Shown: piece by piece, positions 39,084 through 55,096 of the stretch
How the letters are laid out: each line of letters opens with the position of its first letter
Position numbering within the stretch: position 1 is the stretch's first letter
From: an uncultured SAR116 cluster alpha proteobacterium
GTDB lineage: Bacteria > Pseudomonadota > Alphaproteobacteria > Puniceispirillales > Puniceispirillaceae
DNA: 64,000 nt
Reading direction: 5' to 3'
Assembly (NCBI GenBank): GCA_902520885.1
Contig: CABYPW010000001.1
Coordinates: forward strand, 124,001 to 188,000
The notes under the pieces: model-generated
Database searches by the model: none
Seen by the model: only the letters and a program-made list of their open reading frames with translations
Told to the model about the DNA's origin: nothing
Program-made: the position numbers and the translations under genes

Positions 39084-40208
39084 TTATGAATAATGACTTT
39101 TTATAAAAGGTTTTAAAATGTCCAAATCCACCTCAGTGCCTAGACCCAATCCCGTTGGTGCTCTTACTCTTCCTTTGTCGATCGTCAAGCTTTCCGAGAC
39201 TGGATCTACATCTAGATATTGATTAGTGATACTTACATCCCAATTAATATTCGGAACCAAACAAGACAGAATCGAAACAGCATTTCCGCTTATACTTGTC
39301 TCAGCCACCTTACCAGCAAGATTAATATTAAGACCTAGCGCATGAGCGTGTTTCGCAGCTTCAAGGACAGCTATCATACCTCCCAATTTAATCGTTTTCA
39401 AACTGCACCCCATGACAGCCGAAGCTTCTACTAACTCTGAAATATCGCTTAGACTGTGGACTCCCTCGTCTGCTCCCAGAGGCACTGAAGTTGAAGATGC
39501 AACATCTTTAATGTCCGAAATATCGTCAGCAGGAACCGGTTGCTCAAAAAAATCAATTCCCGATTCTCCTGCTTCGGAAGCAAATGTTTTTGCCTCAGTC
39601 AGATTAAATCCTTCATTGGCATCTGCAGAAATAAAGGCTGTATTTCCAAGTGCTTTCCTAATCGAGAAGCATCTCATTAAGTCTTCTTTAGCTGAGTTAG
39701 AACCAACTTTTATTTTAAACGCATCAAAACCCTCTTTTTGCTTTTCCTTAGCACGAGCTATTTCCTCATCTATTGTTCCACCTGCTATCATGTAAAGAGC
39801 TCTTGAGGAATCTCTTTTTGGACCTCCAAGAAGTTCTATTAAAGAACAATTATTCGTTCTTGCAAACAAATCTAATATGGCCATTTCTATGGCAGAAATA
39901 GCACCTTGATTCCCATACAAAGGCGTATTCAATAAAACTTTTATATCTGCTAAATTCTTTATATCAGAACCCACTACCATTGATTTGAGAAACTTTGCTG
40001 CTGATACCATTCCTTCGGCAAACTCACCTGTCATTGTAGGCGCAGAAGAAGCTTCTCCCCACCCAATAAGTCCATTATCGCCAGATATTTTTATTATGAG
40101 ATTATCAGCCGTATCAAGAATAACTCCGGCCATTTTTATTCTAGATTTTAAAGGCATTGATACCGAAAAAATTTCTACATTTTGAATGTTAACATTTATA
40201 TAGCTCAT
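39084..40208 (-). CDS. Enolase-superfamily enzyme (MLE/dipeptide epimerase-like)
   Basis: A mandelate racemase/muconate lactonizing enzyme subgroup protein of 374 residues. FKIKVG (about 161-166) gives the first catalytic lysine pair, metal ligands lie in ADANEG, FFEQP and GADEG, and the second lysine is in LKTIKLGG. The subgroup includes dipeptide epimerases, muconate cycloisomerases, o-succinylbenzoate synthases and N-succinylamino-acid racemases. Next to a peptide-type transporter epimerase is plausible; next to CoA and ring enzymes cycloisomerase is too. Confidence 0.85.
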   Translation of the reverse strand: MSYINVNIQNVEIFSVSMPLKSRIKMAGVILDTADNLIIKISGDNGLIGWGEASSAPTMTGEFAEGMVSAAKFLKSMVVGSDIKNLADIKVLLNTPLYGNQGAISAIEMAILDLFARTNNCSLIELLGGPKRDSSRALYMIAGGTIDEEIARAKEKQKEGFDAFKIKVGSNSAKEDLMRCFSIRKALGNTAFISADANEGFNLTEAKTFASEAGESGIDFFEQPVPADDISDIKDVASSTSVPLGADEGVHSLSDISELVEASAVMGCSLKTIKLGGMIAVLEAAKHAHALGLNINLAGKVAETSISGNAVSILSCLVPNINWDVSITNQYLDVDPVSESLTIDKGRVRAPTGLGLGTEVDLDILKPFIKSHYS

Positions 40209-40218
40209 ATAAATAATC

Positions 40219-41409
40219 CTACCTTGTAAATTGCTCGATTTCCTTATCCGACATACCTAAAAATTCTCTCAAAATTTCTTCATTATGTTCTCCCAAAAGT
40301 GGCGGGGGAAGGTTAGTTTCTTTTCCTCTTTTCCCATCAAAAGAGATTGGAAGACCAAGTGATTTTACAATACCGGCAGTTGGATGATCCAAATCTAGAA
40401 CCATACCATTTTCAATTGTCTGTGGGTGTGACAAAGATTGAGTAACTGTTCTAACCACGGCAACTGGAATCCCATTTTTCTGAAGCAGCTTGTGCCAATG
40501 TTCAGCATTCTCTTCAGATAACGCTTTTTCTATCAAATGCTCTAATTCTACCCTATTTTCGACTCTTGACGCATTTGATGAAAATTTTGGGTTTTCGCAC
40601 CATTGAATATTTTCCATAATTTCGCTAAACAGCCTAAATTGACCATCATTTCCGACTGATATTACTAACGCCCCTTCTCCGCATTTAAAGAGATTATAAG
40701 GGACAATATTTGGATGACCATTCCCATAACGTTTTGAGTCTCTTCCGGATATGAGATGATTCGAGGCTACGTTTGCCAGAAGAAAAATACCAGTATTATA
40801 TAGGTTAACGTCAATTAAAGAACCTGCACCAGTTAGATTTCTTTTGTTGAGAGCCGCAAGTATGCCTATAACTGCGTTCATTCCAGTAGCAATATCAACA
40901 ATTGCAACACCAAGTTTCATAGGCTCTCCATCAGCGGAACCAGTTATGGCCATCAATCCAGATTCTGCTTGTAAAAGAAAATCATACCCGGGCATTCCAC
41001 CATTTGGTCCTTTGTTTCCATACCCCGTTATTGAGCATCGAATAACTTGGTTTGCATTTGTTTTAAACCAATCATCAGTTAGACCCAGTTTTCCCAAGAG
41101 ACCCGGTTTAAAGTTATCAATAACAACGTCACTTTTTTTAATTAAATTCTTTAAAATTTTTAAGCCATCTGGAGTTTTGAAATCCAATGCAAGACTTTTT
41201 TTATTCCTATTAACTCCCAGAAAATAGGCTGCTTCTGTATCAGCAAATGGCGGGCCCCAATGTCTAGTGTCATCTCCTCTGGAAGGATGTTCTATTTTAA
41301 TTATGTTTGCTCCCATATCACCCAGCATCTGCGTACATAAGGGCCCAGCTAAAACGCGTGTTAAATCTAAAACAGTAACATTTTCCAATGCATCTTGTTG
41401 TTTATTCAT
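40219..41409 (-). CDS. Class III CoA-transferase (CaiB/BaiF family)
   Basis: Moves CoA between carboxylic acids. The family opening VLDLTRVLAGPLCTQMLGDMGA lies at about 13-34 and the expected catalytic aspartate is D172 in VDIATGM. The length of 396 residues is normal. Its position between an enolase-superfamily enzyme and a hydrolase/crotonase pair suggests it activates or swaps CoA on the imported acid before ring or chain cleavage. The substrate is unknown. Confidence 0.92.
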   Translation of the reverse strand: MNKQQDALENVTVLDLTRVLAGPLCTQMLGDMGANIIKIEHPSRGDDTRHWGPPFADTEAAYFLGVNRNKKSLALDFKTPDGLKILKNLIKKSDVVIDNFKPGLLGKLGLTDDWFKTNANQVIRCSITGYGNKGPNGGMPGYDFLLQAESGLMAITGSADGEPMKLGVAIVDIATGMNAVIGILAALNKRNLTGAGSLIDVNLYNTGIFLLANVASNHLISGRDSKRYGNGHPNIVPYNLFKCGEGALVISVGNDGQFRLFSEIMENIQWCENPKFSSNASRVENRVELEHLIEKALSEENAEHWHKLLQKNGIPVAVVRTVTQSLSHPQTIENGMVLDLDHPTAGIVKSLGLPISFDGKRGKETNLPPPLLGEHNEEILREFLGMSDKEIEQFTR

Positions 41410-41446: not shown

Positions 41447-42622
41447 CTATAATTTATCTATTAACCAATCAAACATTTCTGAGTAGGCTAGACTTGCATA
41501 ATCTCTTTGACAATGCTGTGCTCCACCCTCTTCAGGGGTAAAAACTCTTAATGTTTTATCTAGGGAACCTGATGCATTTAACAAAGATTTTGCATCCTCC
41601 AATGGCACCTGTTCATCTGCTGAACCATGGGTAATTAGAAATGGACAGCGCATATTTTGGACAACACCGTCAAGTTTGTAATCTGATAATTTTCCTAAAA
41701 CTTGATGCATGTTATCAACACCCAAAATCCAGCAAATATGATGACCTGGAACGCTCATTGATTCGTTAAACTTGGCTTCAATTCTTTTTTGCCAAGTCTT
41801 CTGATAATCCCATATTGCACCCCAGGCAATACACGCCTTAAGCCTTGGTTCCATAGATGCACATCTCGGGGCGTAATATCCCCCCAAACTTACCGCCATA
41901 ATACCAATTCGGTTTTTATCTACGTCTTCACGCGTTTCCAAATAATCTACGCAGGCTGAACCAGCTACTTCATAATCAGGTCTAAGAAACATTCCCCGAA
42001 ACCTTATTGCTTCACCAGTTCCAGGCCCATCCATCACAAGACATGAAAAACCCCTTTTTATGAGCTCTGGAACCCCTCTTGCATATTGAAGTTCTTTTGT
42101 AATATCTAGCCCATCAAAAAAAATCATGGTCGGATTTTTTGATTTTTTTGTGTTCTCTGCATGAACAAAATAACCCGGAAGAAAATTTCCCTCATAAGGA
42201 ACTTCTACAATCTCTATTTTGGGGGAAATACTTAGCTGCGCATGCTCATGAAAACATTCCACAGATTTTCTGTAAACATTTAACGCATGGTCATCTTTAA
42301 CTGTCCTAAACCTTTCTCCCCACTGATAATAACAAGATGCTCTCAAATAAAAAACGGAAGCAGAAATAGTATGTCCTCTATTTCTACAATCATCCGCTTT
42401 TTGTTTAAGTTCGTCCCCAAGCTCTTGCCAAGTAAAAAACCAAGCCTCATCATCCCCCAGCTTATTTTTTAACTTCCTTGCTGTTCGGTCAATTTCACCC
42501 ATGTCACTCGCGCCAACTACGGCTAGTCCTAGCATTCCACCAATCGCCGCGGACCACCTGTAATCCTCTGGAAAATAGGTAAACCATTCGGTAGTTTTCG
42601 GTCTGATATGTTGCATTTTCAC
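41447..42622 (-). CDS. Alpha/beta hydrolase of the FrsA/DUF1100-like group (copy 1)
   Basis: A 391-residue protein with an N-terminal helical cap (about 1-135) and an alpha/beta core. The catalytic triad is visible: S245 in AVSLGG, D336 in GSADEQVP and H370 in GGAQHCQ. Relatives include 2,6-dihydroxypseudooxynicotine hydrolase and the fungal Ayg1-type enzymes, which cut carbon-carbon bonds beside carbonyls, and also plain esterases. A paralogue of the same build lies at 48930-50153. Confidence 0.82.
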   Translation of the reverse strand: MKMQHIRPKTTEWFTYFPEDYRWSAAIGGMLGLAVVGASDMGEIDRTARKLKNKLGDDEAWFFTWQELGDELKQKADDCRNRGHTISASVFYLRASCYYQWGERFRTVKDDHALNVYRKSVECFHEHAQLSISPKIEIVEVPYEGNFLPGYFVHAENTKKSKNPTMIFFDGLDITKELQYARGVPELIKRGFSCLVMDGPGTGEAIRFRGMFLRPDYEVAGSACVDYLETREDVDKNRIGIMAVSLGGYYAPRCASMEPRLKACIAWGAIWDYQKTWQKRIEAKFNESMSVPGHHICWILGVDNMHQVLGKLSDYKLDGVVQNMRCPFLITHGSADEQVPLEDAKSLLNASGSLDKTLRVFTPEEGGAQHCQRDYASLAYSEMFDWLIDKL

Positions 42623-42661: not shown

Positions 42662-43516
42662 TTATTTTTTCATATTATCATCATTCTCCAAACCGCTTAA
42701 GTATTGTTTTACTTCTGCTGCATTTCGATCTCTAAACTTTTTAAAGTCGGGTTTACGTTTTTCAAGAAATGCATGCATACCCTCGAGTGATTCTTCTGAA
42801 CCCCAGACGTGTGCAAGTAACTCCATTCCATGTTGCCAAGATGCATAAAGCTCATCTGATTCCGCATTGAGTGATTTTTTAGTCTGTCGCAATGTCTGGC
42901 CGCTGTGGCTATTAATCCTCTTGACCCATTCAAGTGTTTCCTCATACAATTTATCCTGAGGAACACACTTATTTATAAGACCAACCTTGACTGCCTCATC
43001 TGCTCTAAATGAACGTGCCAAAAATATCATCTCGCGTGCAATTCGTTCTCCAACTATACGGGGTAAATATTGTGTTGCGCCGACTGTTGGACATGCACCA
43101 ACTCGAGCTCCTGTTTGACCTAGTACTGCATTTTCAGATGCAATCACGAGGTCACACCAAAGCGCTAATTCATGGCCACCACCCATGCACCAGCCATTTA
43201 CCATCGCAATGACGGGTATAGGAACACCCCGAATAGCCATGGCAAGGCCTAGCATACGATCATTCCAATGAGCTGCATTTACCCAATTTAATCTTTTCAT
43301 TGCGTAAAAATCACCGCCAGCTGAAAATGCTTGTTCTCCAGCTCCAGTAATCACTATGCATGAGATCGATGGATCGTTTCTTGTTTCAAGGACTGCTTCA
43401 CGCAATTCATCTAATGTTTGTTCGCGAAAAGCGTTTCTTACCTCTGGTCTATTTATCGTAATCCAGGCGGCACTCTCTTTTACTTCAACAAGAATTTCAT
43501 TATATTTAGTTTTCAT
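42662..43516 (-). CDS. Crotonase-superfamily enzyme resembling MenB/BadI
   Basis: A 284-residue crotonase. AWITINRPEVRNAFR, AFSAGGDF and GWCMGGGHELAL mark the CoA and oxyanion site, and the late EKRKPDFKKF is like MenB and BadI, which form or open six-membered rings. After GQTGARVG the MenB/BadI aspartate position reads proline (CPTVGATQYL), so the chemistry is probably not that of either. AAGGA lies upstream of the ATG, which falls within the end of the VOC gene (11-nt overlap). Confidence 0.85.
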   Translation of the reverse strand: MKTKYNEILVEVKESAAWITINRPEVRNAFREQTLDELREAVLETRNDPSISCIVITGAGEQAFSAGGDFYAMKRLNWVNAAHWNDRMLGLAMAIRGVPIPVIAMVNGWCMGGGHELALWCDLVIASENAVLGQTGARVGACPTVGATQYLPRIVGERIAREMIFLARSFRADEAVKVGLINKCVPQDKLYEETLEWVKRINSHSGQTLRQTKKSLNAESDELYASWQHGMELLAHVWGSEESLEGMHAFLEKRKPDFKKFRDRNAAEVKQYLSGLENDDNMKK

Positions 43517-43946
43517 TTTTTATTCCTTTTCCATTTTTGTTTTCCACGATCTCAACTAAAATACTGCTCGTATCTGATGGGTGCATAAAAAACATCTTTC
43601 GACCATGGTGGCCCTTTGACGGTTCGCCAAGCGCCCTCATTTTATTATTTTTAATTTTTTTTGATGATTCTTCCGCATCGGTTGTTAAAGCGCAGAAATG
43701 ATGCATAGCTCCTTTAGGATTGCGCTCCAAAAACTTAGCTATGGGGCTTTGATCATTTAAGGGTTCGATGAGCTCGATTTTTACATTCTGAAAATGAATG
43801 TATGCCATTCTAATTCCTTGTTCAGAAACAATTTTTGGTGATGTAATCTCAGCACCAAAAAGCTTTGAGTACTGTTCTAAAACTGGCTCAATTTTAGGAA
43901 CAGCAATCGCGATGTGATCAAGTACATTTTCTGCAACTTTTTCCAA
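43506..43946 (-). CDS. VOC-family protein, methylmalonyl-CoA epimerase-like
   Basis: A vicinal-oxygen-chelate fold protein with the repeated beta-alpha-beta pattern. DHIAIAVPKIEP is the typical opening and AMHHFCALT the second metal region; the last metal ligand is likely E in ILVEIVE. I choose a TTG start at 43946 because GGGAGGTG lies 5 nt upstream; the longer frame from a TTG at 43964 would put that site inside the gene. It may move a CoA-acid stereocentre or act on another CoA substrate in the same operon. Confidence 0.8.
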   Translation of the reverse strand: MEKVAENVLDHIAIAVPKIEPVLEQYSKLFGAEITSPKIVSEQGIRMAYIHFQNVKIELIEPLNDQSPIAKFLERNPKGAMHHFCALTTDAEESSKKIKNNKMRALGEPSKGHHGRKMFFMHPSDTSSILVEIVENKNGKGIKNEN

Positions 43947-43981
43947 AATCACCTCCCAATACAAATTCCATTAACTAAAAA

Positions 43982-44008: not shown

Positions 44009-44773
44009 TTATGAACTTAAAATTAATGCAATGCCAAGACAAAATAGTACCGCATAGGTAATATACCTGAAATAATTTTCAGACACGATGTCAAAGAGAA
44101 ATATCCCAGTTTTTAAACCGATTGAAAGAGGAATAGACAATAGAAAACCTAAAGCAATAAACCTCGAATCAAAGCCTTCTACAAAAATAAAATAAGCAAA
44201 AAAAGATAAAATCGTAAAAATAATTACTAACTGGATATTGCTTTGAATAATATCTTTTTCAACTGGTGATGATAAAAAATAAATTCCTGTAAATGGTCCA
44301 GTAGGGACCCCAAAAAACCCTGAAAAAAGTCCCGTTACCCAACCAAACCCTAGCGAGATAAGTCTAGTTTGCGGGCCATTATATCTCCATCCTGAGAATA
44401 AAATAAACGTGCCGACAAGAATAAAGATACCCATGTAAAAAGTGATTTCTGAAATTTCATTTTGAAAAAGAAAGTTTAGCCCAATGAATGCTCCAACACA
44501 GAGGCCCAGACTGTAAAAAAGAGTGATTCTTTTTTGTGAATATTTTACAGCCCTTCTTATTGTAAAGGTAACTCCGACTAAACCTGATAAGATAATAATG
44601 TTCATTCCTGGGATAGGCCCAAGAAGAAGAGTGTAGCAAGGCAACATAAATAATGACCCTGCAAAACCGGTAAATCCACGAATAACACCTCCAAGAAAAG
44701 CTATTAAAACGCAGATCAAAAGAGTAGCTAATTCTAGCTCAAACAGTTCAAAAAATCCAATGGTCATGGTCAA
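44009..44773 (-). CDS. TauE/SafE-family permease (second)
   Basis: A 254-residue, roughly eight-helix membrane protein with the glycine-rich GGVIRGFTGFAGSLFMLP near 29-46 and GLFSGFFGVPTGPFTGIY near 148-165. These match TauE/SafE repeats loosely. It begins the minus-strand catabolic run; a gap of 62 nt holding TATCGATA follows. It may export an organic anion or take one up. Confidence 0.75.
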   Translation of the reverse strand: MTMTIGFFELFELELATLLICVLIAFLGGVIRGFTGFAGSLFMLPCYTLLLGPIPGMNIIILSGLVGVTFTIRRAVKYSQKRITLFYSLGLCVGAFIGLNFLFQNEISEITFYMGIFILVGTFILFSGWRYNGPQTRLISLGFGWVTGLFSGFFGVPTGPFTGIYFLSSPVEKDIIQSNIQLVIIFTILSFFAYFIFVEGFDSRFIALGFLLSIPLSIGLKTGIFLFDIVSENYFRYITYAVLFCLGIALILSS

Positions 44774-44956: not shown

Positions 44957-45928
44957 TTGACGAAAAAGAAAATTAACAGAGAGGATTTAAGTATAGCAGC
45001 TGAAAAGTATAAAAATTGGGGTAAATGGGGGCCAGACGATGAAATAGGTACCTTAAATTATACTACAGCAAATGATATTGTTGAAGCATCAAGGTTAGTT
45101 AATAAAGGCAAAGTAATCTCTCTTGCCTTAAATTTTGACTCTCGTGGTCCTCAAGGTGCTAAATCTAAATATCAATCATTAGGCAGAATAAACCCACTTC
45201 ATACAATGTTGAGAACCGGCACTGATGCTTATTCTGGTGTTCTCGACCAGCGTGGTATTCGAGCGGCAGATGATATGATTGTAATGCCACTTCAATCTGG
45301 GACCCAATGGGATGGTCTCGGGCATGTATTTTACGAAAATTTTATGTGGAATGGATATGATTGTAGAGAGGTGACTTCTTCAGGTGCTCAAAAATGTGGA
45401 ATAGAAAAAACCAAAAATAAGATGGTGGGTCGAGGCGTTTTGCTTGACGTTCCAAAAGAAATGGGGATGGCACGTCTTGAGGATGGTTATGGTATCACAT
45501 GCGAAGATTTGGAAAGAACCGCTAAATCTCAGCAGGTAGAAATTAAACGTGGAGATTATGTTATTGTTCGTACTGGTCAAATGGAAGAAATGCTTAAGAC
45601 CGGCAGTTGGGATGGTTACCCAGGCGGTGATGCACCAGGGTTTGCCTTTGAAACGCTGGAATGGTTGCAAGAAAAAGAAATTTCTGCAATAGCATCAGAT
45701 ACTTGGGGGTGTGAGGTGCGACCTAATGAATCAGAAGAAGGTATTAACCAACCATGGCACTGGATTACAATTCCTATAATGGGAATCACAATGGGTGAGA
45801 TTTTTTTTCTTGGTGATTTAGCATCAGATTGTGCAAATGACGGGATTTACGAATTTATGTTTGTTGCACCTGCCTTGCCGATTACGGGTGCAGTTGGTTC
45901 ACCTACTAATCCGCTTGCTATAAAGTAA
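44957..45928 (+). CDS. Cyclase-family metal-dependent hydrolase
   Basis: A 323-residue member of the cyclase/kynurenine formamidase superfamily. The metal motif SGTQWDGLGH is at 114-123 (D119 and H123), in place of the classic HxGTHxD. Relatives open cyclic imides, amides or lactones, or act on kynurenine. It starts at TTG with GGGAG 6 nt upstream and heads a four-gene operon ending at a terminator near 50.2 kb. The substrate is unknown. Confidence 0.82.
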   Translation: MTKKKINREDLSIAAEKYKNWGKWGPDDEIGTLNYTTANDIVEASRLVNKGKVISLALNFDSRGPQGAKSKYQSLGRINPLHTMLRTGTDAYSGVLDQRGIRAADDMIVMPLQSGTQWDGLGHVFYENFMWNGYDCREVTSSGAQKCGIEKTKNKMVGRGVLLDVPKEMGMARLEDGYGITCEDLERTAKSQQVEIKRGDYVIVRTGQMEEMLKTGSWDGYPGGDAPGFAFETLEWLQEKEISAIASDTWGCEVRPNESEEGINQPWHWITIPIMGITMGEIFFLGDLASDCANDGIYEFMFVAPALPITGAVGSPTNPLAIK

Positions 45929-45987
45929 AGTGATGGGTGAGAATCCTACTAACTTAAATTTAGTTTAACATAATGGAATGGTAAAAA

Positions 45988-47664
45988 ATGAAAAAACAAA
46001 CAGGTGCAGTTGTACTAGCAGAATTACTGAAATCCTTGGGTGTGACTCATATTTTTATGGTTCCGGCTGTTTTAAGAAGAACTATGGTTGAGATTGAGAA
46101 AAGGACTAACATCAAAAGAATCCATGTACATTCAGAAAAATCTGCTGCTTATATGGCAGATGGGTATGCACGAGTATCCCACAAACCTGCCATTTGCATG
46201 GCCCAAATAATTGGTGCCTTAAATATTGCAGCTGGGCTCAGAGATGCCTTCCTAGCCCATTCACCAGTAATCGCCCTGACAGGTGGACGTGAACCGAAGA
46301 CAAAATTTAAAAAAGTATATCAAGAAATCGATGATATGCCTGCTTTTGAACCAGTAACAAAATTTAATGCTACGATTGATGATGTAAATCGTTTTTCAGA
46401 CATGATGGAACAAGCCTTTAGAGTTGCAACTTCAGGTTCACCAGGTCCAGTTCACCTGCAGTTTAGAGGAAATGAAGCGCAAATAGACTTAGAAGAAATA
46501 GAAGAAGAGGTTACTGTAAATGAAATTAACATCCAAATTCCTCCTCATCGGCCAATATGTGATGATAGTGTTTTAAAAAAAGCACTTGAGGCCATTCAAA
46601 CAGCTTCTAAGCCTATTATTGTTGCTGGAGGAGGCGCAAGACATTCTGGGTGCTCGAAAGAATTACTAACGTTTGCAGAAAAACTTAGCATACCTATCGC
46701 AACCTCCCTCAATGGAAAAGACTTACTCAACTCAAACCACCCCCTTTCTTGTGGAGTTGTAGGCACTTACTCCCGGGAATCAGCCAATCTATCTGTAAAA
46801 GAAGCAGACCTAGTAATCTTTATTGGCTCCGAAACAGGCTCTATGACAACCCACTTTTGGGCTGTGCCAACAACTAAAGTTAGAGTTATTCAAATTGATA
46901 TTGAACCTGAAAATCTTGGTAGAAATTATAATCTTGAAGTAGCCATTCATGGAGATGCAAAAGTTATTTTAGAAAGAATGACCACACTCGCTGATTCAAA
47001 AAATTTTCCAGAGAGAACAGAATGGCTTTCGCGAATAACAAAATTGCGCAGTGATTGGTATTATAAATATCAACCATTAATGGAGAGTGATGCTAAACCT
47101 ATTAGACCAGAAAGATTATGTCGGGAAATTAGTAATGCTGCCCCAAAAAACGCAGTATTCGTGGTAGATACGGGTCATGCAGGCATGTGGATGGGGGGTA
47201 TGTTTGATTTAACTCATTCAGAACAAACCTACATAAGGAGTGCAGGCCATCTTGGGTGGGCCTTCCCTGCCTCTCTTGGTGCAAAATGTGCTTTACCTAA
47301 CAAACCAGTTATTTGCTTCACTGGAGATGCTGGTTTTTGGTACCATATTGCCGAAATCGAAGTAGCCGTAAGATGGAATATAAATACAATTGTGATTGTA
47401 AATAATAATAGTGGCGGCAATCAATCAAAGAGAGGATTTGATAGAGCCTATGGCGGGGAGCAGACAGAGGAAGGACGCCAACTTTGGACATTTAACAACA
47501 TAAATTTTGCCGCCATAGCTGAAAACATTGGTGCCGTAGGTATAAGGGTGGAAAACGCGAAAGAAATTAAACCAGCCATTGAAAAAGCTATAGAGCTAAA
47601 TAATCCTGTTATTATTGATGTTGTAACTGACATCAATGCATTAGCGCCATTGGCTACTGTTTGA
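45988..47664 (+). CDS. Thiamine-diphosphate enzyme of the acetolactate synthase-like family
   Basis: A 558-residue ThDP enzyme with the three domains of the family. The ThDP-activating glutamate is E50 in VHSEKSAAYMADGYAR, and the pyrophosphate and metal motif starts GDAGFW and ends IVNNN. Family members make acetolactate, split cyclohexane-1,2-dione or act as 2-hydroxyacyl-CoA lyases and oxalyl-CoA decarboxylases. Its position between a ring-opening hydrolase and an OsmC-like protein points to catabolism, not valine synthesis. The ribosome site is GGAATGG. Confidence 0.88.
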   Translation: MKKQTGAVVLAELLKSLGVTHIFMVPAVLRRTMVEIEKRTNIKRIHVHSEKSAAYMADGYARVSHKPAICMAQIIGALNIAAGLRDAFLAHSPVIALTGGREPKTKFKKVYQEIDDMPAFEPVTKFNATIDDVNRFSDMMEQAFRVATSGSPGPVHLQFRGNEAQIDLEEIEEEVTVNEINIQIPPHRPICDDSVLKKALEAIQTASKPIIVAGGGARHSGCSKELLTFAEKLSIPIATSLNGKDLLNSNHPLSCGVVGTYSRESANLSVKEADLVIFIGSETGSMTTHFWAVPTTKVRVIQIDIEPENLGRNYNLEVAIHGDAKVILERMTTLADSKNFPERTEWLSRITKLRSDWYYKYQPLMESDAKPIRPERLCREISNAAPKNAVFVVDTGHAGMWMGGMFDLTHSEQTYIRSAGHLGWAFPASLGAKCALPNKPVICFTGDAGFWYHIAEIEVAVRWNINTIVIVNNNSGGNQSKRGFDRAYGGEQTEEGRQLWTFNNINFAAIAENIGAVGIRVENAKEIKPAIEKAIELNNPVIIDVVTDINALAPLATV

Positions 47665-47718
47665 TTTTATATGATCCATGAAATTATGCTACATATTTAA
47701 AAGCTACAGGAGAATTTT

Positions 47719-48900
47719 TTGAGATATCCCAGTATAGACAAAGATAACTACCCACTTGGTTTTCTGTTTATCAATGGAAGCGAACAACCGAGTATTGTAA
47801 AGGGTGGAAGCGGTAAAACAACCTATAAGACCCATGCCAGACAAATGGCATTATTCCAGAAAGAGGCGCTTGTTCAAGAAGGCGAGAGAGGAAGTAGATG
47901 GAGGCTTTCATCAGATGAAGGAAAACATCTTTCTGGGACTGACCTCGCTCCATTTCCTCTTGGTTTTTTTAATGCTGCTCTTCATGGTGATTTGACAGGA
48001 CGAATTCGTCATTTTGCTAATGTTGATAATCTAGATATCAAACAAATAGATATGGAAGTGTCTAATTTTTACTACATGACTGGCTCTTTTGTAAAAGGAG
48101 ATGCAGCAGGACATGCAGAGCCTCCTTTAATTGAAATGTCTTTCAGTGCAAAAGCAAATCCAGAAGAAATAAACAAAATAGTTGCAAAAGCTTTATTAGC
48201 CTCCCCATTTATCTATGGCTATAAAAATGCACTCCATAGTCGTTTTTCTTTGTTCATAAACGGGACTCAAAAAAAACTCTCAAATTTGCCGAATTGTCCC
48301 GTGGACGCAGCTGAAGATCCATTTATGATTTACAAGACATCTCCTGCGCCCAAAGAAGGGTTTAAATGTATGGAGAACATAATAAGAAAGTCTGGAACTG
48401 AATTAGAAGGTGAAATAACAAAAGCCCCAACTGGTACAACAACAAAAATTATTCGTAATATCTATGGAGAAAGCCACAGTGATTTAAAATCAAGCACTGT
48501 GATTGCAGATACGGTACTTGGTCTTCCTGGGATGACACGCTTTGAGATTGGAAGTGACGAAGGCGGAAATACTGGCCCTTCTGGCTTAAGCCATCTATGT
48601 GCAGGCATATCTTTTTGCTTTTTAACACAGTTGCACAGATACATCGAACATCAAAAATTCTCTATAAATAATATGCGTCTTTCTCAGACAATTGATTTTG
48701 AAGTAAGTGAAAAAGAAAATGTAAAAATAGGAAAGATGGCTGCCGTCGATACGCATCTTTTTATGAATGGTGAAGCCTCTGAAAAAGAATATGAAAGGCT
48801 TTTGGAATTATCTGCAAGGTCCTGTTATCTTCATGCGACTCTTGCAACACCATTAGAACCAAAAGTAGAAATTTGCTTAAATGGAAATTTTATTTCCTAA
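47719..48900 (+). CDS. Tandem OsmC-like protein with one degenerate half
   Basis: A 393-residue protein I read as two OsmC-like modules. The second, about 270-390, carries both redox cysteines: C300 in ISFCFLTQLHRY and C369 in ARSCYLHA. The first, about 58-185, repeats the same pattern (SSDEG, PFPLGFFNAAL, ALLASPFI) but has D91 and S162 at the cysteine positions. OsmC/Ohr proteins are dimers whose active sites use both chains, so this may be a fused, half-active dimer. The start is TTG after AGGAGA. Its function is unknown; peroxide reduction or a thioester-like reaction are possible. Confidence 0.62.
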   Translation: MRYPSIDKDNYPLGFLFINGSEQPSIVKGGSGKTTYKTHARQMALFQKEALVQEGERGSRWRLSSDEGKHLSGTDLAPFPLGFFNAALHGDLTGRIRHFANVDNLDIKQIDMEVSNFYYMTGSFVKGDAAGHAEPPLIEMSFSAKANPEEINKIVAKALLASPFIYGYKNALHSRFSLFINGTQKKLSNLPNCPVDAAEDPFMIYKTSPAPKEGFKCMENIIRKSGTELEGEITKAPTGTTTKIIRNIYGESHSDLKSSTVIADTVLGLPGMTRFEIGSDEGGNTGPSGLSHLCAGISFCFLTQLHRYIEHQKFSINNMRLSQTIDFEVSEKENVKIGKMAAVDTHLFMNGEASEKEYERLLELSARSCYLHATLATPLEPKVEICLNGNFIS

Positions 48901-48929
48901 CAAAAATCTAAAAGGCCAGGAAAATAAAA

Positions 48930-50153
48930 ATGAAATCACTTAGAACAAAACGAGATGAACAACAATGGATGCTTGATCTTGCACTCAATATGCGAGGGAG
49001 AGTCCAAAATTTTGAACGAGATGATTGGGAAACACCAAAGCGTGCCCATAATTATCGGATGCTTCCAAAAATGTGGAAACAAAAAGCAGAACATGATGAA
49101 GCTTTAGCAAAGCAGGCTGAAAAACAAGGATTCCTAATGACCGCGTTAGAGCATTATGAACATGCAGTTGAAGCCTATAGAATGGCACAGCACCCTATTT
49201 ATTTTGACGACAATCCTGTAAAAATATATTTGACTAAAAAACTTGCTGAGATGGTGGATAGAAGAAGCGCCATTTCTCCTTACCCAATAGAACGCATAGA
49301 AGTACCTTTTGATGATGGTAAAACAATTTCCTGTCTTTTGCACTTGCTTCCGGACAGACGTAAAGCTCCTTGTATAATCTACGTGCCGGGAATGGACCAA
49401 ACAAAAGAATATTTTCCAAAGGTAATGAATAATCTAGCTATAAACAGAAGAATGCATGTCATTTCTATGGATGGGCCGGGGCAAGGCAACTCAAATATGC
49501 AGAAAATCCGTGCTGTTGGAAATAATTATGAGCGTGCTGGTGCTGCTGTTATCTCATACCTTCAAACAAGAGAAGAAATAGATAGCGAACGCATTGGTAT
49601 TTATGGAGTAAGTATGGGGAGCTATTGGTCGCTTCGTTTAGCAAGTTATGACCATCGAGCAGCTGCCATAGCGAGTGGTGTTGCGTGTTTTAATCCTAAT
49701 AATACTATTTTTTCTGTCTCTTCACCACGTTTCAAACAAATGTTTATGTATATGGCAGGAATGGAGGATGAAAATGAATTTGACAAAATGTCGTCTGAAA
49801 TGACTGTAAAAGGATATTCGGATAAAATTACTTGTCCAACATTGCTAGCCACAGGTGAGTTTGATCCATTATGCCCGTTAGAAGATGCTATTGAAGTTTT
49901 CGAGGACCTCAGATGTAGAAAAGAAATGTGGGTAATTGAAGACCAATTTCATCCATTATGGGGAATCCCCAATTTAGGTAAACTAGACTGCCATCATTAC
50001 ATTATGGACTGGCTACAACGCGTGCTTTTTTCCAAAAATCCTCAAGAAGGACTAGCAAACGGACGCATTGCCTACGTCGCAAATAATGGTGATGGGCCAT
50101 GGGGTGACTGCCAATGGGAGCCTCCAATTAGTAGTAATGATTCCTATTTTTAA
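48930..50153 (+). CDS. Alpha/beta hydrolase of the FrsA/DUF1100-like group (copy 2)
   Basis: A 407-residue protein with a helical cap and alpha/beta core. The triad is S228 in GVSMGS, D312 in GEFDPLCP and H341 in DQFHPLWG. It has the same build as the hydrolase at 41447-42622, in the opposite operon. It could cut a carbon-carbon bond of a diketone or an ester; the family has both. It is the last gene of the operon, followed 24 nt later by a terminator. Confidence 0.82.
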   Translation: MKSLRTKRDEQQWMLDLALNMRGRVQNFERDDWETPKRAHNYRMLPKMWKQKAEHDEALAKQAEKQGFLMTALEHYEHAVEAYRMAQHPIYFDDNPVKIYLTKKLAEMVDRRSAISPYPIERIEVPFDDGKTISCLLHLLPDRRKAPCIIYVPGMDQTKEYFPKVMNNLAINRRMHVISMDGPGQGNSNMQKIRAVGNNYERAGAAVISYLQTREEIDSERIGIYGVSMGSYWSLRLASYDHRAAAIASGVACFNPNNTIFSVSSPRFKQMFMYMAGMEDENEFDKMSSEMTVKGYSDKITCPTLLATGEFDPLCPLEDAIEVFEDLRCRKEMWVIEDQFHPLWGIPNLGKLDCHHYIMDWLQRVLFSKNPQEGLANGRIAYVANNGDGPWGDCQWEPPISSNDSYF

Positions 50154-50176: not shown

Positions 50177-50207
50177 CGGCTTGAATTAACAAGCCGCGCT
50201 TTTTTTT
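50177..50207 (+). terminator. Rho-independent terminator of the cyclase-ThDP-OsmC-hydrolase operon
   Basis: Stem CGGCTTG (50177-50183) and CAAGCCG (50190-50196) with a 6-base loop, followed within a few bases by a run of eight T. It closes the plus-strand operon 24 nt after its last stop. Confidence 0.88.
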
Positions 50208-50218
50208 ATTTATACTAA

Positions 50219-51283
50219 TCAGAGCCCCAAAAGCTTTTCAGCATTACCTCCAACAATTTTTGCAATATCCTCTTCAGTCAAGGAGGTGGTGCCCGTAACA
50301 TGACCTATTGGGTCATCCTCTGCCATATCATACGGATAATCTGTGCCCATTACGATTTTGTCAGAACCATATATTTTGACCAGATAATCTAACTGCTCAT
50401 AAGTAAATACTACTGTGTCAAAATATATTTTCTTTAAGTAGTCAGATGGCTTGTTCTTTATAATTTCACGACAATCCGGACGAGCGCCCCAGGCGTGGTC
50501 TATTCGTCCAGCGTATGCTGGGAGATATCCACCCCCGTGAACGGCAAGAATTTTCAAGCCTGGGTATCTTTCAAGAGTGCCATCAAAAATTAATTGATGA
50601 ATAGCAACCGTTGTATCTAGAGGATTTCCAATAACATTATTAAAATAGTGATTTAAGAAGCGGTCACCTTGTGGATATCCATTAGGGTGCAGAACCATCA
50701 AAGTATCGAGTTTTTCTGCCATCTCCCACATTGGGTCTAGACTTCTATCTGATAATTCAGAACCATTTACTGAACCTAGTACCTGAAATCCTTTTAATCC
50801 TAATTCTTTTACTCCTCGTTCCATCTCTTTAGCAGCAGCGTCTCCATCTTGTAGCGGCAAATGCCCAAGAGCAAGAAATCTATCGGGACGAGATTGAGCA
50901 ATTGAGGATAATTTATTGTTAATTGTTTGTATGGCTTTATGCCCAACAGAATTTCGAACTGAATAATATGCCTGAAAGGGAACAGGAATAAGCACTTGCA
51001 TATCGATACCCTGTCTATCCATATCGCGAAGACGTTGGTCTAAATCTGTTAGGTGGACGATTCTATCTTCTTGGTTTTGTTTTACATTTTGAGCGGTAGT
51101 GCGCGGATTTGAATATCTAACAGCCGGGATAGCCATCGGGTTTAAAATCCCGTCAACTAAATCATGTGCTTCCTGAACGTGTAAATGACAATGTGCATCA
51201 ATTGTAAGACGTGAAGGGCGTGTTTCAGCTCCTGACTTGCCATGTTCTCTGGCAGCGGTTGCGCCATAAGGTCTTAATTCCAT
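50219..51283 (-). CDS. Amidohydrolase 2 family protein (ACMSD-like decarboxylase/hydrolase)
   Basis: A 354-residue TIM-barrel metal enzyme. H31 and H33 of DAHCHLH begin the metal site, a third histidine is in MVLHPNGYP, a fourth in AVHGGG, and the aspartate is in MGTDYP. Members include 2-amino-3-carboxymuconate semialdehyde, gamma-resorcylate and 5-carboxyvanillate decarboxylases, so decarboxylation of an aromatic or unsaturated acid is likely. It diverges from the CoA-transferase operon across 247 nt that hold two palindromes. Confidence 0.87.
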   Translation of the reverse strand: MELRPYGATAAREHGKSGAETRPSRLTIDAHCHLHVQEAHDLVDGILNPMAIPAVRYSNPRTTAQNVKQNQEDRIVHLTDLDQRLRDMDRQGIDMQVLIPVPFQAYYSVRNSVGHKAIQTINNKLSSIAQSRPDRFLALGHLPLQDGDAAAKEMERGVKELGLKGFQVLGSVNGSELSDRSLDPMWEMAEKLDTLMVLHPNGYPQGDRFLNHYFNNVIGNPLDTTVAIHQLIFDGTLERYPGLKILAVHGGGYLPAYAGRIDHAWGARPDCREIIKNKPSDYLKKIYFDTVVFTYEQLDYLVKIYGSDKIVMGTDYPYDMAEDDPIGHVTGTTSLTEEDIAKIVGGNAEKLLGL

Positions 51284-51530: not shown

Positions 51531-52406
51531 ATGGTAGATAAAATAATGACTGCTCAACAAGCAGTAAAAAAATACGTAAATAATTCTGATATGGTTTTTG
51601 TTGGTGGTTTTGGTCATGCAATTCCATTTTCAGTGGTACAGGAAATCGTTCGTCAAAAAAAACATGGTCTGCACTTGATAAAAACTGGTGCTGATATTGT
51701 CTTCGATATGCTAGTTGCAGGTGGTTGTGCCCAAGGTTTAACGTGTGGTTGGTATGGCAATCCAGGCATAGGCATGAGTAATGTTATTAGAAATGCGGTT
51801 GAGTCAGGTACACTTGAATTGACCGAAAGCACAAATTTTTCAATGATGTTGCGCTTACACGCAGGAAAACTTGGAGTACCGTTTATTCCTTCTCCTATTC
51901 TTTCCGATGGTGATCTCGCACACACAGTTTCAGAAATAAAATCTATAAAGTGCCCATTTACGGATACTGAACTCCAAGCCCATGGTTCCTTAAATCCAGA
52001 TGTTGCTGTCGTTCATGCGCAACGTTCCGATATAAACGGCAACGTGCAACTATGGGGCTCTATTGGCGATACTGTAGATGGATGCGAGGCGTCAAAAAAA
52101 ATTATTTGTTCCGTTGAAGAAATTTGCCGAGAAGATGAAATTTCTCTTACGCCTCATCTTACAAAATTACCAGCACACAAAGTTGTTGCCGTTATAAAGC
52201 AGCCCTTTGGGGCCTATCCTTCTTATTTACATAGTTTTTATCAAAGAGATGAAAAATATTATGCAAACCATAGCAACAATACCAAAGATGCTTTAAAAAC
52301 TAAGGAATGGCTTCAATCAACTATTTACAATCATAATGATTTTAATAGCTATCTTCACAGCCTGCCAGATGATTTATTGAAAAAGCTAGAATGGGACAAT
52401 TCATGA
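51531..52406 (+). CDS. Two-subunit CoA-transferase, subunit A (GctA-like)
   Basis: A 291-residue family I CoA-transferase subunit. The glycine-rich opening MVFVGGFGHAIPFSVVQEI lies at about 21-39, and the long GCAQGLTCGWYGNPGIG follows. It is closest in shape to glutaconate CoA-transferase and to the IpdA ring-cleaving subunit. Start codon ATG at 51531 or 51546 (MTAQQ). Its stop overlaps subunit B. Confidence 0.87.
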   Translation: MVDKIMTAQQAVKKYVNNSDMVFVGGFGHAIPFSVVQEIVRQKKHGLHLIKTGADIVFDMLVAGGCAQGLTCGWYGNPGIGMSNVIRNAVESGTLELTESTNFSMMLRLHAGKLGVPFIPSPILSDGDLAHTVSEIKSIKCPFTDTELQAHGSLNPDVAVVHAQRSDINGNVQLWGSIGDTVDGCEASKKIICSVEEICREDEISLTPHLTKLPAHKVVAVIKQPFGAYPSYLHSFYQRDEKYYANHSNNTKDALKTKEWLQSTIYNHNDFNSYLHSLPDDLLKKLEWDNS

Positions 52407-53161
52407 AACATAAGGTGGTGAAAGAAAGTGCTCAGAAACAAACTATATCAGATGATTCGATTTCACAAGCAAGAGCAGCTTTCATGGCATCTGGTGAAAT
52501 CTTCGATTGTAAGACAATTTTTGTTGGTATTGGATTGCCCTGTTTAGTTGCCCACATAACCCAGAATTATACATCACCAAACTGTCAACTTGTGTTTGAG
52601 TCAGGACTAATGGAGGTAATGTGCAAAACACAACCTTTATCTACCGCAAGCGCAAATATCGCAAAAGCTTCAAAAATGCATGGTTCTATGCTGGATGTTT
52701 TCAGTATGCTCCAGCGAGGCGAGATTGATGTTGGGTTATTATCTGCAGCTCAAATAGATGTTAACGGAAACCTTAACAGTAGCAAGCTCAATACAAAATC
52801 TGGAAAAACTATATCACTACCAGGTTCAGGAGGGGCTCACGATATTTCAGTGTTGGCAAATAAAGTAGTTGTTGTAATGCCATCCGACCCAAGACGCTTT
52901 GTAAACAATGTCGATTTCATCACTTCACCAAATATACCGTATGGTAACAGAAAGGGTGTAGTTGGCGTTGCTATGCCAGATGGATATTTCAGTTTTGAAA
53001 CAGGAAAGGCTGTCTTACAAAAAATTTATTCTGATAGAAATGCTGAAGAAATCAGAACCTCTTTAAATTGGGATGTAGAAATTTCGTCAACACTAGAAAG
53101 GATTAATCCGCCGTCAAATACGATACTGGAGGGTGCTAATATATTTTTACAGAATAATTAA
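52403..53161 (+). CDS. Two-subunit CoA-transferase, subunit B (GctB-like)
   Basis: The second subunit. The glutamate in LVFESGLMEV, near the residue that forms the CoA thioester in GctB, is kept. The ATG at 52403 overlaps the subunit A stop (ATGA), which I take as the start; the ATG at 52391 adds four residues. The pair may activate a dicarboxylic acid, but relatives such as IpdAB open rings, so the reaction is not fixed. Confidence 0.87.
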   Translation: MKHKVVKESAQKQTISDDSISQARAAFMASGEIFDCKTIFVGIGLPCLVAHITQNYTSPNCQLVFESGLMEVMCKTQPLSTASANIAKASKMHGSMLDVFSMLQRGEIDVGLLSAAQIDVNGNLNSSKLNTKSGKTISLPGSGGAHDISVLANKVVVVMPSDPRRFVNNVDFITSPNIPYGNRKGVVGVAMPDGYFSFETGKAVLQKIYSDRNAEEIRTSLNWDVEISSTLERINPPSNTILEGANIFLQNN

Positions 53162-53257: not shown

Positions 53258-53298
53258 AAATTAATAATCGTTAAGCATAATAAATTTTGGAGAGAGTT

Positions 53299-54192
53299 AT
53301 GACTATCAAAGATTGTATAGCGCCAGATAGAAACCCAAGAAAACCCAACATAACCCTGCCGAAAGGTAGCATCGATACACATGTACATATTTTTGAGAGT
53401 CATTTCCCCTTGTTTGAAGGAAGAGGATACAATCCACCAGATTCTACATTAGAAGATTTAATACATCTCCACCAAACACTTGGAATAGACAGAGTTGTTT
53501 TTACACAGCCATCCGTTTATGGAGTGGATAACTCAGCCATTTTAAAAGGAATGAAGGTCTTGAACGAAAAGATTCCAAATAAAGCACGTGGTGTTTGTGC
53601 CATTAAAATGGATACTTCTGAAAATTTCCTTCAGGAATTGCATGGACAGGGCATCAGAGGAGTTAGACTTAATCTAGATAACAAAGGCGGGATGCCACTT
53701 GAACTAAAAGAGATTTCAAAACTTGAAGATAAAATAAAAAGCCTTGGTTGGCATTTAGAGTATTTGTTTCCAGGCAAAGATATTGTGGAACTAGAGCCGG
53801 TGCTGTCTAATGCATCCGTTCCCATATCGATAGGTCACTTTGCATATCAACCTGCTACAGCTGGTATCAATTCAGATGGTTTCAAAACATTATTGAAACT
53901 TGTAAAAGATGGAAATACATGGATTAAAATATCAGGAGCTAACCGCGTGAGTGAGACAGACCTTCCACCTTATGACGATGTTTTGCCAATGGCCAGAGCA
54001 CTCGTGGAAGCTAATTCTGATAATGTAATGTGGGGTACAGACTGGCCTCATCCAAATAAGTATGAAGTAAATCCAAATGATGGAGACCTGGTAAATTGGT
54101 TTGGTGAATGGATAACTGATGATAGCATGCGAAAGCAAATTATGGTTACCAATTCAGAATTATTTTATGATTTTGGTGATTATCAGGGGTAG
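53299..54192 (+). CDS. Amidohydrolase 2 family protein (LigI/PDC lactonase-like)
   Basis: A TIM-barrel hydrolase with the HxH motif in DTHVHIFESH, a later histidine in ISIGHFAYQP, and the aspartate in WGTDWPHPN. These match 2-pyrone-4,6-dicarboxylate lactonase (LigI) of aromatic breakdown and related sugar lactonases. The ATG at 53299 follows GGAGAG and is preferred to the TTG at 53287. It would open a lactone or pyrone ring. The substrate is inferred. Confidence 0.84.
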   Translation: MTIKDCIAPDRNPRKPNITLPKGSIDTHVHIFESHFPLFEGRGYNPPDSTLEDLIHLHQTLGIDRVVFTQPSVYGVDNSAILKGMKVLNEKIPNKARGVCAIKMDTSENFLQELHGQGIRGVRLNLDNKGGMPLELKEISKLEDKIKSLGWHLEYLFPGKDIVELEPVLSNASVPISIGHFAYQPATAGINSDGFKTLLKLVKDGNTWIKISGANRVSETDLPPYDDVLPMARALVEANSDNVMWGTDWPHPNKYEVNPNDGDLVNWFGEWITDDSMRKQIMVTNSELFYDFGDYQG

Positions 54193-54268: not shown

Positions 54269-55030
54269 ATGAACCGAACTCAAATAAAGGTCGCACTTAT
54301 TACTGGAGGTGGGACAGGCATTGGGAGATCAGCAGCAATAGCTCTGCAAAATGATAATTATAATGTTATCGTTTGTGGGAGAAGAAAGGAACAGCTTGAA
54401 GAAACCGCATCTGTTGGCGCAACTGATAAGCCAAAAATTCATGCTATTGCTGCCGATGTTACCGATAGTAGCTCAGTTAAATCAGTATTTGCAGAAATAG
54501 AAAAAAACTATGGTAGATTAGATGTGCTATTTAATAATGCAGGTATGGGTGCGCCTCGCGTTGAACTAGACGAATTAAGTGAAGAGGCTTGGCGTCAATG
54601 TGTTGATGTAAATCTCACTGGTAGTTTTTTGTGCGCACAGGCGGCTTTTAAAATAATGAAATCTCAATCTCCACAAGGAGGGAGAATAATAAATAATGGT
54701 TCAATAAGTGCCCACTCACCAAGGCCTAATACAATTGCATATACAGCAACTAAACATGCCATTACAGGAATGACAAAAACAATAGCCCTAGACGGACGTC
54801 CTTACTCTATCGCATGCTCACAACTCGACATAGGTAACGCTGACACAGCGATTGGGAATAGATTTACCAAAGGAGTTCCTCAAGCTAATGGTGACATTAT
54901 GGTTGAGCCAGTAATAGAATCAGATGAGTGTGGCCGCGCGGTAGCTTATATGGCAAGCCTTCCACTTGATACAAATATTCTTAACATGACTATTATGGCA
55001 ACTAACATGCCTTTTGTTGGCAGAGGATGA
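54269..55030 (+). CDS. Short-chain dehydrogenase/reductase
   Basis: A 253-residue SDR with the cofactor loop TGGGTGIGR (about 11-19), NNAG (about 89-92), and the catalytic serine and YTATK tyrosine and lysine near 147-164. It is a classical SDR without a clear substrate. It follows the LigI-like gene by 76 nt on the same strand and precedes the dehydratase, so it probably makes or consumes the same acid. GGAG precedes the ATG. Confidence 0.93.
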   Translation: MNRTQIKVALITGGGTGIGRSAAIALQNDNYNVIVCGRRKEQLEETASVGATDKPKIHAIAADVTDSSSVKSVFAEIEKNYGRLDVLFNNAGMGAPRVELDELSEEAWRQCVDVNLTGSFLCAQAAFKIMKSQSPQGGRIINNGSISAHSPRPNTIAYTATKHAITGMTKTIALDGRPYSIACSQLDIGNADTAIGNRFTKGVPQANGDIMVEPVIESDECGRAVAYMASLPLDTNILNMTIMATNMPFVGRG

Positions 55031-55096
55031 AAATACAGAAAAACTTAAACTTGTATTTTCAAAAAGTTTAATTCATTAGAACAGAGAAATTTTAAT

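Follow-up and report, generated by a model that had tools for sequence, protein, structure and literature searches.

We analyzed a 64,000-nucleotide stretch of DNA (hereafter the window, to which all plain coordinates refer) from an uncultured SAR116 cluster alphaproteobacterium, contig CABYPW010000001.1 of a genome of 2.17 Mb in 39 contigs, and focused on four genes that follow one another on the forward strand. The first (44957-45928, TTG start) encodes a 323-residue cyclase-family hydrolase of PF04199, and the second (45988-47664, ATG start) a 558-residue thiamine diphosphate (ThDP)-dependent enzyme that is close to no curated model. The third (47719-48900, TTG start) encodes a 393-residue tandem OsmC-like protein, and the fourth (48930-50153, ATG start) FrsA1, a 407-residue alpha/beta hydrolase of the FrsA/2,6-dihydroxypseudooxynicotine hydrolase type with a GVSMG nucleophile motif. 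The intergenic gaps are 59, 54, and 29 nt, confirming the complete single-strand run described in an earlier interpretation of these letters (the sequence-only reading), and its four family assignments also held, each protein either exceeding its Pfam cut-off or carrying the full domain set. The four genes are a real, conserved predicted operon, and they lie within a larger locus predicted to serve breakdown.

The ribosome sites, judged by eye, seemed good at three of the genes and weaker at the ThDP gene. Behind FrsA1, between convergent genes, lies a predicted bidirectional intrinsic terminator with its stem at 50177-50196 (+) and a run of eight T. A consensus scan alone is no proof of it, as the scan returned 5 terminator-like sites against 6.6 expected. 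However, a stem-loop of diverged sequence is found directly 3′ of the FrsA1 stop codon in the window and in 7/7 orthologous loci, and this constancy of place makes the terminator, already proposed at 50177 in the sequence-only reading, credible beyond the scan. Two loci are exceptional in detail: in L123 the stem-loop is followed by only three T, and L120 has 8 unread bases there. A promoter consensus scan was at chance level (29 promoter-like sites against 27.5 expected) and was not used.

The cyclase scored 79.6 bits against the PF04199 profile (cut-off 23.1), and its sole solved relative at E 0.001 was MGS0169 (PDB 5ibz; E 3e-61), whose entry chain is also 323 residues long. Gln127, Gln131, Asp133, His137, Arg87, His286, and Glu299 of MGS0169 align with Q113, Q117, D119, H123, R77, H268, and E281 of the window protein (7/7). 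As described in the available part of its report, MGS0169 is a metal-stimulated esterase that works best with Mn, although the crystal was metal-free; alanine changes at the site residues lowered activity, and H137A was insoluble (PMC5341072). The classical metal motif of PF04199, as in KynB and isatin hydrolase, is HxG[T/A]HxDxPxH (PMC6117287; PMC5341072, in part). In MGS0169 it is replaced by Gln-x-x-x-Gln-x-Asp-x-x-x-His, a modification shared, by the same partly available description, with the trans-dienelactone hydrolase of Pseudomonas reinekei MT1 (PMC5341072). The window cyclase likewise departs from the classical motif, with Q113 and Q117 in place of the first two His, where isatin hydrolase has metal-binding His, and its locus has lactone- and muconate-like neighbors. 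Since all seven site residues of MGS0169 are present, we read the cyclase as a candidate esterase or lactonase. MGS0169 is nevertheless more distant from the window protein than the orthologues of the operon are, and the available part of its report mentions no ThDP partner (PMC5341072).

A tree of 41 cyclases contained 32 Gln-Gln and 9 His-His members and none that was mixed. The nine His-His proteins, all from OCS116/Rhodobiaceae (L164:9000-9968 and 8 related loci), formed one clade (support 100/100) nested inside the Gln-Gln members when the tree was rooted on the Acidimicrobiia group, our chosen outgroup. From this alignment and tree, a single switch of the metal site, made by changing both residues, thus appears to have taken place in the OCS116/Rhodobiaceae lineage. 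Of seven paralogue loci tried for the tree, four were dropped for short translated pieces, and the Gln-Gln motif was read in those four too. The window's own genome holds a second cyclase (54%) at G000:C20:642-1589 (L206), and in G102 three tandem cyclase paralogues lie near an FrsA-type hydrolase and a short-chain dehydrogenase/reductase (SDR) at L084:11356-14463, with a similar arrangement in G208 (L085).

The ThDP protein carries the three TPP_enzyme domains (PF02776, PF00205, and PF02775), and H48 and E50 were invariant in 27/27 aligned members; E50 is at what we take to be the position of the conserved ThDP glutamate. The protein fell below the cut-off of all 25 NCBIfam models listed (of 54 matched), including the acetolactate synthase model TIGR00118 (339.6 bits against 538.35). 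Its nearest solved structures, which match nearly the whole protein, were BbmA (PDB 8X3X), glyoxylate carboligase, and acetolactate synthase, together with 2-hydroxyacyl-CoA lyase/synthase; missing all of the listed cut-offs sets the window protein apart from these known carboligases and synthases. Cyclohexane-1,2-dione hydrolase, which the sequence-only reading had named as an example from this family, ranked 34th of 147 solved structures by profile and 37th of 161 by single sequence, and is thus no especially close relative. A role as the cell's acetolactate synthase was rejected: a bona fide IlvB (783.5 bits against a cut-off of 538.35) and an IlvN, both above their cut-offs, are encoded at G000:C6, which also removes the earlier worry that this gene might be the cell's only acetolactate synthase. 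We also observed that a relative of the ThDP gene in G208 (61%; G208:C8:25594-27249, L102) contains one in-frame TAG and has a cyclase ∼21 kb away on the same contig.

FrsA1 exceeded the cut-off of the FrsA-like family PF06500 (36.2 bits, cut-off 22) and fell well below that of the FrsA equivalog NF003460 (49.9 bits against 477). Its best solved match, over residues 72-336, was 2,6-dihydroxypseudooxynicotine hydrolase (2JBW; E 3e-17), which is a C-C hydrolase. The nucleophile Ser of the two proteins aligned; however, the match reaches only this E value, and the substrate of FrsA1 is probably other than that of 2JBW. Among plasmid-borne relatives of FrsA1, one from Cupriavidus had no cyclase or ThDP gene listed in its stretch, and one from Haloarcula had a cyclase ∼8 kb away with a His-type motif. 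A further FrsA-type hydrolase (38%) is encoded in the window's own genome at G000:C3:69178-70323 (L068).

The third protein of the operon exceeded the cut-offs of OsmC PF02566 (49.2 bits, cut-off 27.5) and of the OsmC-related (seleno)protein family NF041052 (118.2 bits, cut-off 95). An hhalign comparison of its N-terminal with its C-terminal half, built on 14 sequences, gave a probability of 98.1 and, for a library of one, an E value of 1e-13, bearing out the tandem architecture proposed earlier. Cys300 and Cys369 are confined to the C-terminal half, and the N-terminal half lacks Cys at both matching places. In a sample of 289 genomes of the class, matches over most of the protein's length were found in G208, G244, and the window's genome, and any match at E 0.001 in 22, most of them to the C-terminal part only. 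The neighborhood of the OsmC gene in G208 includes genes for a divergent ThDP enzyme and for relatives of CoA-transferase III and of the window's second amidohydrolase. Only 4 of 72,556 plasmid records contained a homologue; in three that we inspected, a reductive dehalogenase gene lay 1 or 5 listed genes away in two, and none was listed in the third. The two are the plasmids of Comamonas sp. 7D-2 (L077:9968-11176), five listed genes away, and Nitratireductor sp. OM-1 (L080:7893-9077), one listed gene away. Thus, although the window protein resembles NF041052 in score and in the Cys pair of its C-terminal half, homologues elsewhere keep other company, near reductive dehalogenase or, by eye, CoA-transferase III and dienelactone hydrolase reading frames, and not near this ThDP enzyme. 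The OsmC protein looks like a mobile accessory and, by sequence comparison, is a predicted lineage-specific accessory of the window's group.

To follow the gene set beyond the window, we scanned one genome per species across 84,980 species with the ThDP protein and obtained 92 confirmed relatives, of which 80 loci (45-97% identity) were kept and their neighbors counted by tblastn. The loci were found by patterns taken from the window's own protein, so the sample leans to nearer relatives, and some of them represent nearly identical genomes (nine from OCS116/Rhodobiaceae, for example), which means that the counts are not counts of independent lineages. At least 3.5 kb of upstream sequence was available in 63 loci and 4 kb on both sides in 44. 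By record title, the relatives belong to Alphaproteobacteria, other Pseudomonadota, Acidimicrobiia, Nitrospinota, SAR324, and a planctomycete, and the window's near relatives are two SAR116-cluster alphaproteobacteria and others labeled Alphaproteobacteria or Rhodospirillaceae.

A cyclase of the same family was encoded upstream of the ThDP gene within 4 kb in 35/80 loci on the same strand and in 1/80 on the other strand; once the seven loci of the window's close group were set aside, the same-strand pair was seen in 28/73. An FrsA-type hydrolase lay within 4 kb of the ThDP gene in 19/80 loci (12/73 outside the close group). OsmC was within that distance in seven loci, all from the close group, and in 0/73 outside it. 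The position of the FrsA gene differed as well: it is downstream of OsmC in the window's group, but in two further lineages, the MarineAlpha3-type and OCS116/Rhodobiaceae, it comes before the cyclase. In OCS116 the order is FrsA, cyclase, ThDP enzyme, M24 peptidase, E1a, E1b, E2, and a hydroxyisobutyrate-dehydrogenase type, a 2-oxoacid-dehydrogenase setting that would fit a 2-oxo acid intermediate. On the ThDP tree (79 rows; two rows shorter than 500 residues were left out), the close-cyclase label required eight changes, at least four of them by well-supported branches. Among the 289 class genomes, a close cyclase (E 1e-80 or better) was present in three, all among the four with a ThDP protein of at least 57% identity, and FrsA1 of at least 44% identity was present in the same three. 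In G102, a cyclase (71%) adjoins a relative of the second FrsA-type hydrolase (42%), an enolase-superfamily gene, and an acyl-CoA ligase. The sequence-only reading had staked its proposal on the same four families being neighbors in other genomes. Cyclase-ThDP and FrsA-cyclase-ThDP do recur in some lineages, but the full set was seen only in close relatives.

Within the genus, the operon is not a self-standing four-gene system but belongs to a conserved locus that spans about 15 genes; the earlier idea of an undescribed four-gene system therefore stands in its conserved operon and catabolic setting but not in its extent. Gene order was kept in six same-genus loci, as far as each contig extends, and a seventh locus, L120, counted apart from these six, agreed in order, with a ThDP protein 80% identical. 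In five of the six loci, the ThDP and OsmC proteins had diverged to 77-82% identity and the order was still kept. An orthologue of the ThDP gene was found in 7/10 genus genomes searched, the window's own counted; the other three are 64, 61, and 95% complete, and as one of them is 95% complete, not every member of the genus has the locus.

The locus has a strand order, which in the window starts with an enolase-superfamily protein (39084-40208, -; nearest to a muconate cycloisomerase model at 176.3 of 334.95 bits, below cut-off) and a CoA-transferase of family III (40219-41409, -). In some loci only, a second FrsA-type hydrolase follows (41447-42622, - in the window); it is missing between the same neighbors in L051 and L054. 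Next are a crotonase that is MenB/BadI-like but below those cut-offs (42662-43516, -), a VOC protein of methylmalonyl-CoA epimerase type (43506-43964, -; TIGR03081, 120.8 bits, cut-off 114.95), and a TauE/SafE permease, the conserved divergent neighbor of the operon (44009-44773, -). Beyond cyclase-ThDP-OsmC-FrsA1, the order runs on to an ACMSD-decarboxylase-like amidohydrolase-2 (50219-51283, -), a CoA-transferase pair whose first subunit is glutaconate CoA-transferase A-like (51531-53161, +), and an amidohydrolase-2 that is 4-sulfomuconolactone hydrolase-like and below cut-off (53287-54192, +; 200.7 of 500 bits). An SDR with an IlvD/EDD-type dehydratase (54269-56788, +) and an EamA gene complete it. 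The convergent ACMSD-like amidohydrolase is 95-100% identical in related loci, among the best conserved of the locus and above the ThDP and OsmC genes.

From the genes, their conserved order, the partial recurrence of cyclase-ThDP(-FrsA), and the residues that we observed, we infer the reactions, their order, and a role for OsmC. We tentatively propose, as something short of an even chance, that the operon forms the center of a locus for the catabolism of a carboxylated lactone or a cyclic enol or diketone compound, with the cyclase, FrsA, and ThDP enzymes acting in sequence. The Gln-Gln cyclase, as a metal-dependent esterase/lactonase, would open the lactone; we favor lactone opening because the flanks are muconate- and lactone-like, although the muconate cycloisomerase-, 4-sulfomuconolactone hydrolase-, and ACMSD-like proteins all lie below curated cut-offs. 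FrsA1 would then cut the resulting 1,3-dicarbonyl or ester, and the ThDP enzyme would cleave or decarboxylate the 2-oxo acid formed. The flanking CoA-transferases, crotonase, dehydratase, and lactonase- and decarboxylase-like proteins would complete a CoA-dependent breakdown. The OsmC protein may be a thiol peroxidase that removes peracids leaked from the ThDP carbanion in air. In a more specific and improbable version, an undescribed catabolic route would cleave a natural lactone by the successive action of a metal lactonase of the Gln type and a ThDP enzyme of a new subfamily, and the half-degenerate tandem OsmC would be a dedicated protection against peracids that the ThDP enzyme produces in oxygen. 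Known pathways for inositol, phloroglucinol, nicotine, and terpenes, considered for the substrate, could not be matched.

Several observations weigh against this sequential breakdown pathway. The sequence gives no substrate, and the AlphaFold models of the OsmC protein and the cyclase were poor (mean pLDDT 55.7 and 37.8). A cyclase lay within 4 kb of the ThDP gene in only 36/80 loci, and within 7 kb in 27/51 loci with at least 6.5 kb upstream. Two Ancylobacter records carry the ThDP gene, and their stretches yielded no cyclase. In an even class sample outside the genus, 13/13 ThDP loci (42-64% identity) had no cyclase, FrsA, or OsmC gene by tblastn, mostly over ∼20 kb. In G102 and G208 the cyclase and the ThDP gene are not adjacent, the cyclase being elsewhere in the genome, and the FrsA neighbors found beyond the close group share only 26-34% identity with FrsA1. 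Where the cyclase is lacking, the neighbors are instead FAA hydrolase, class II aldolase, PhyH, or permease genes, so the function of the ThDP enzyme may be a broader one. Since the linkage recurs in part of the 80 loci yet is absent from all 13 class-sample loci, we conclude that the cyclase-ThDP linkage depends on the lineage, being genuine in some and lacking in others.

That broader function could be that of a carboligase or oxo-acid decarboxylase, of the acetolactate synthase or glyoxylate carboligase type, with the cyclase and hydrolase as loosely attached helpers. Acetolactate synthase and glyoxylate carboligase are among the nearest models and structures, an E1/E2 dehydrogenase complex stands behind the ThDP gene in OCS116, and many ThDP relatives have no nearby cyclase. 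This explanation is nonetheless doubtful, given that the protein scores far below every listed NCBIfam cut-off, a separate IlvBN is encoded in the genome, and the surrounding genes are catabolic. It is rather improbable that the genes are a chance neighborhood of catabolic genes that has stayed intact solely through recent shared ancestry within the genus. In favor of this, the four-gene set was seen in close relatives of the window alone, three of the ten genus genomes lack the ThDP gene, and the class-sample ThDP loci lack the partners. However, order has been kept despite the divergence of the ThDP and OsmC proteins, and other lineages again contain cyclase-ThDP and FrsA-cyclase-ThDP, in a different order.

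It also seems unlikely that the ThDP enzyme hydrolyzes a C-C bond of cyclic 1,2-diones, in the manner of cyclohexane-1,2-dione hydrolase, with the cyclase performing a retro-Claisen ring opening of a cyclic 1,3-dione, like dihydrophloroglucinol cyclohydrolase. FrsA-type hydrolases do include C-C cleaving members, such as the matched 2JBW, but cyclohexane-1,2-dione hydrolase ranks behind BbmA, glyoxylate carboligase, acetolactate synthase, and 2-hydroxyacyl-CoA lyase/synthase. For the cyclase half, the PF04199 cyclohydrolase of Clostridium scatologenes is a published C-C hydrolase with just this reaction (PMC10470551, available in part). Its metal site, however, is called highly conserved there and agrees with the His type of isatin hydrolase, whereas the window cyclase has Gln at two of the metal-His places (PMC10470551). 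The partners named in the available part of that paper are a reductase, a dehydrogenase, and a lyase, with no ThDP enzyme (PMC10470551).

Overall, our analyses support a conserved catabolic locus in which the family of each enzyme is known; what is new is a predicted catabolic cluster centered on a ThDP enzyme claimed by no curated model listed. We found no publication on the four-gene set in the literature searched, a search that most subscription journals lay outside, in agreement with the earlier statement that no described pathway matches it. The recurrence of two or three of the genes together elsewhere suggests an undescribed pathway for a ring-shaped or lactone-type compound. The natural double change between Gln-Gln and His-His cyclases is a ready test of what the metal-site ligands do, and the ThDP family is linked, in part of its lineages, to a small, testable esterase. 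Naming the substrate of the ThDP enzyme would extend the set of breakdown routes known from uncultured marine bacteria.

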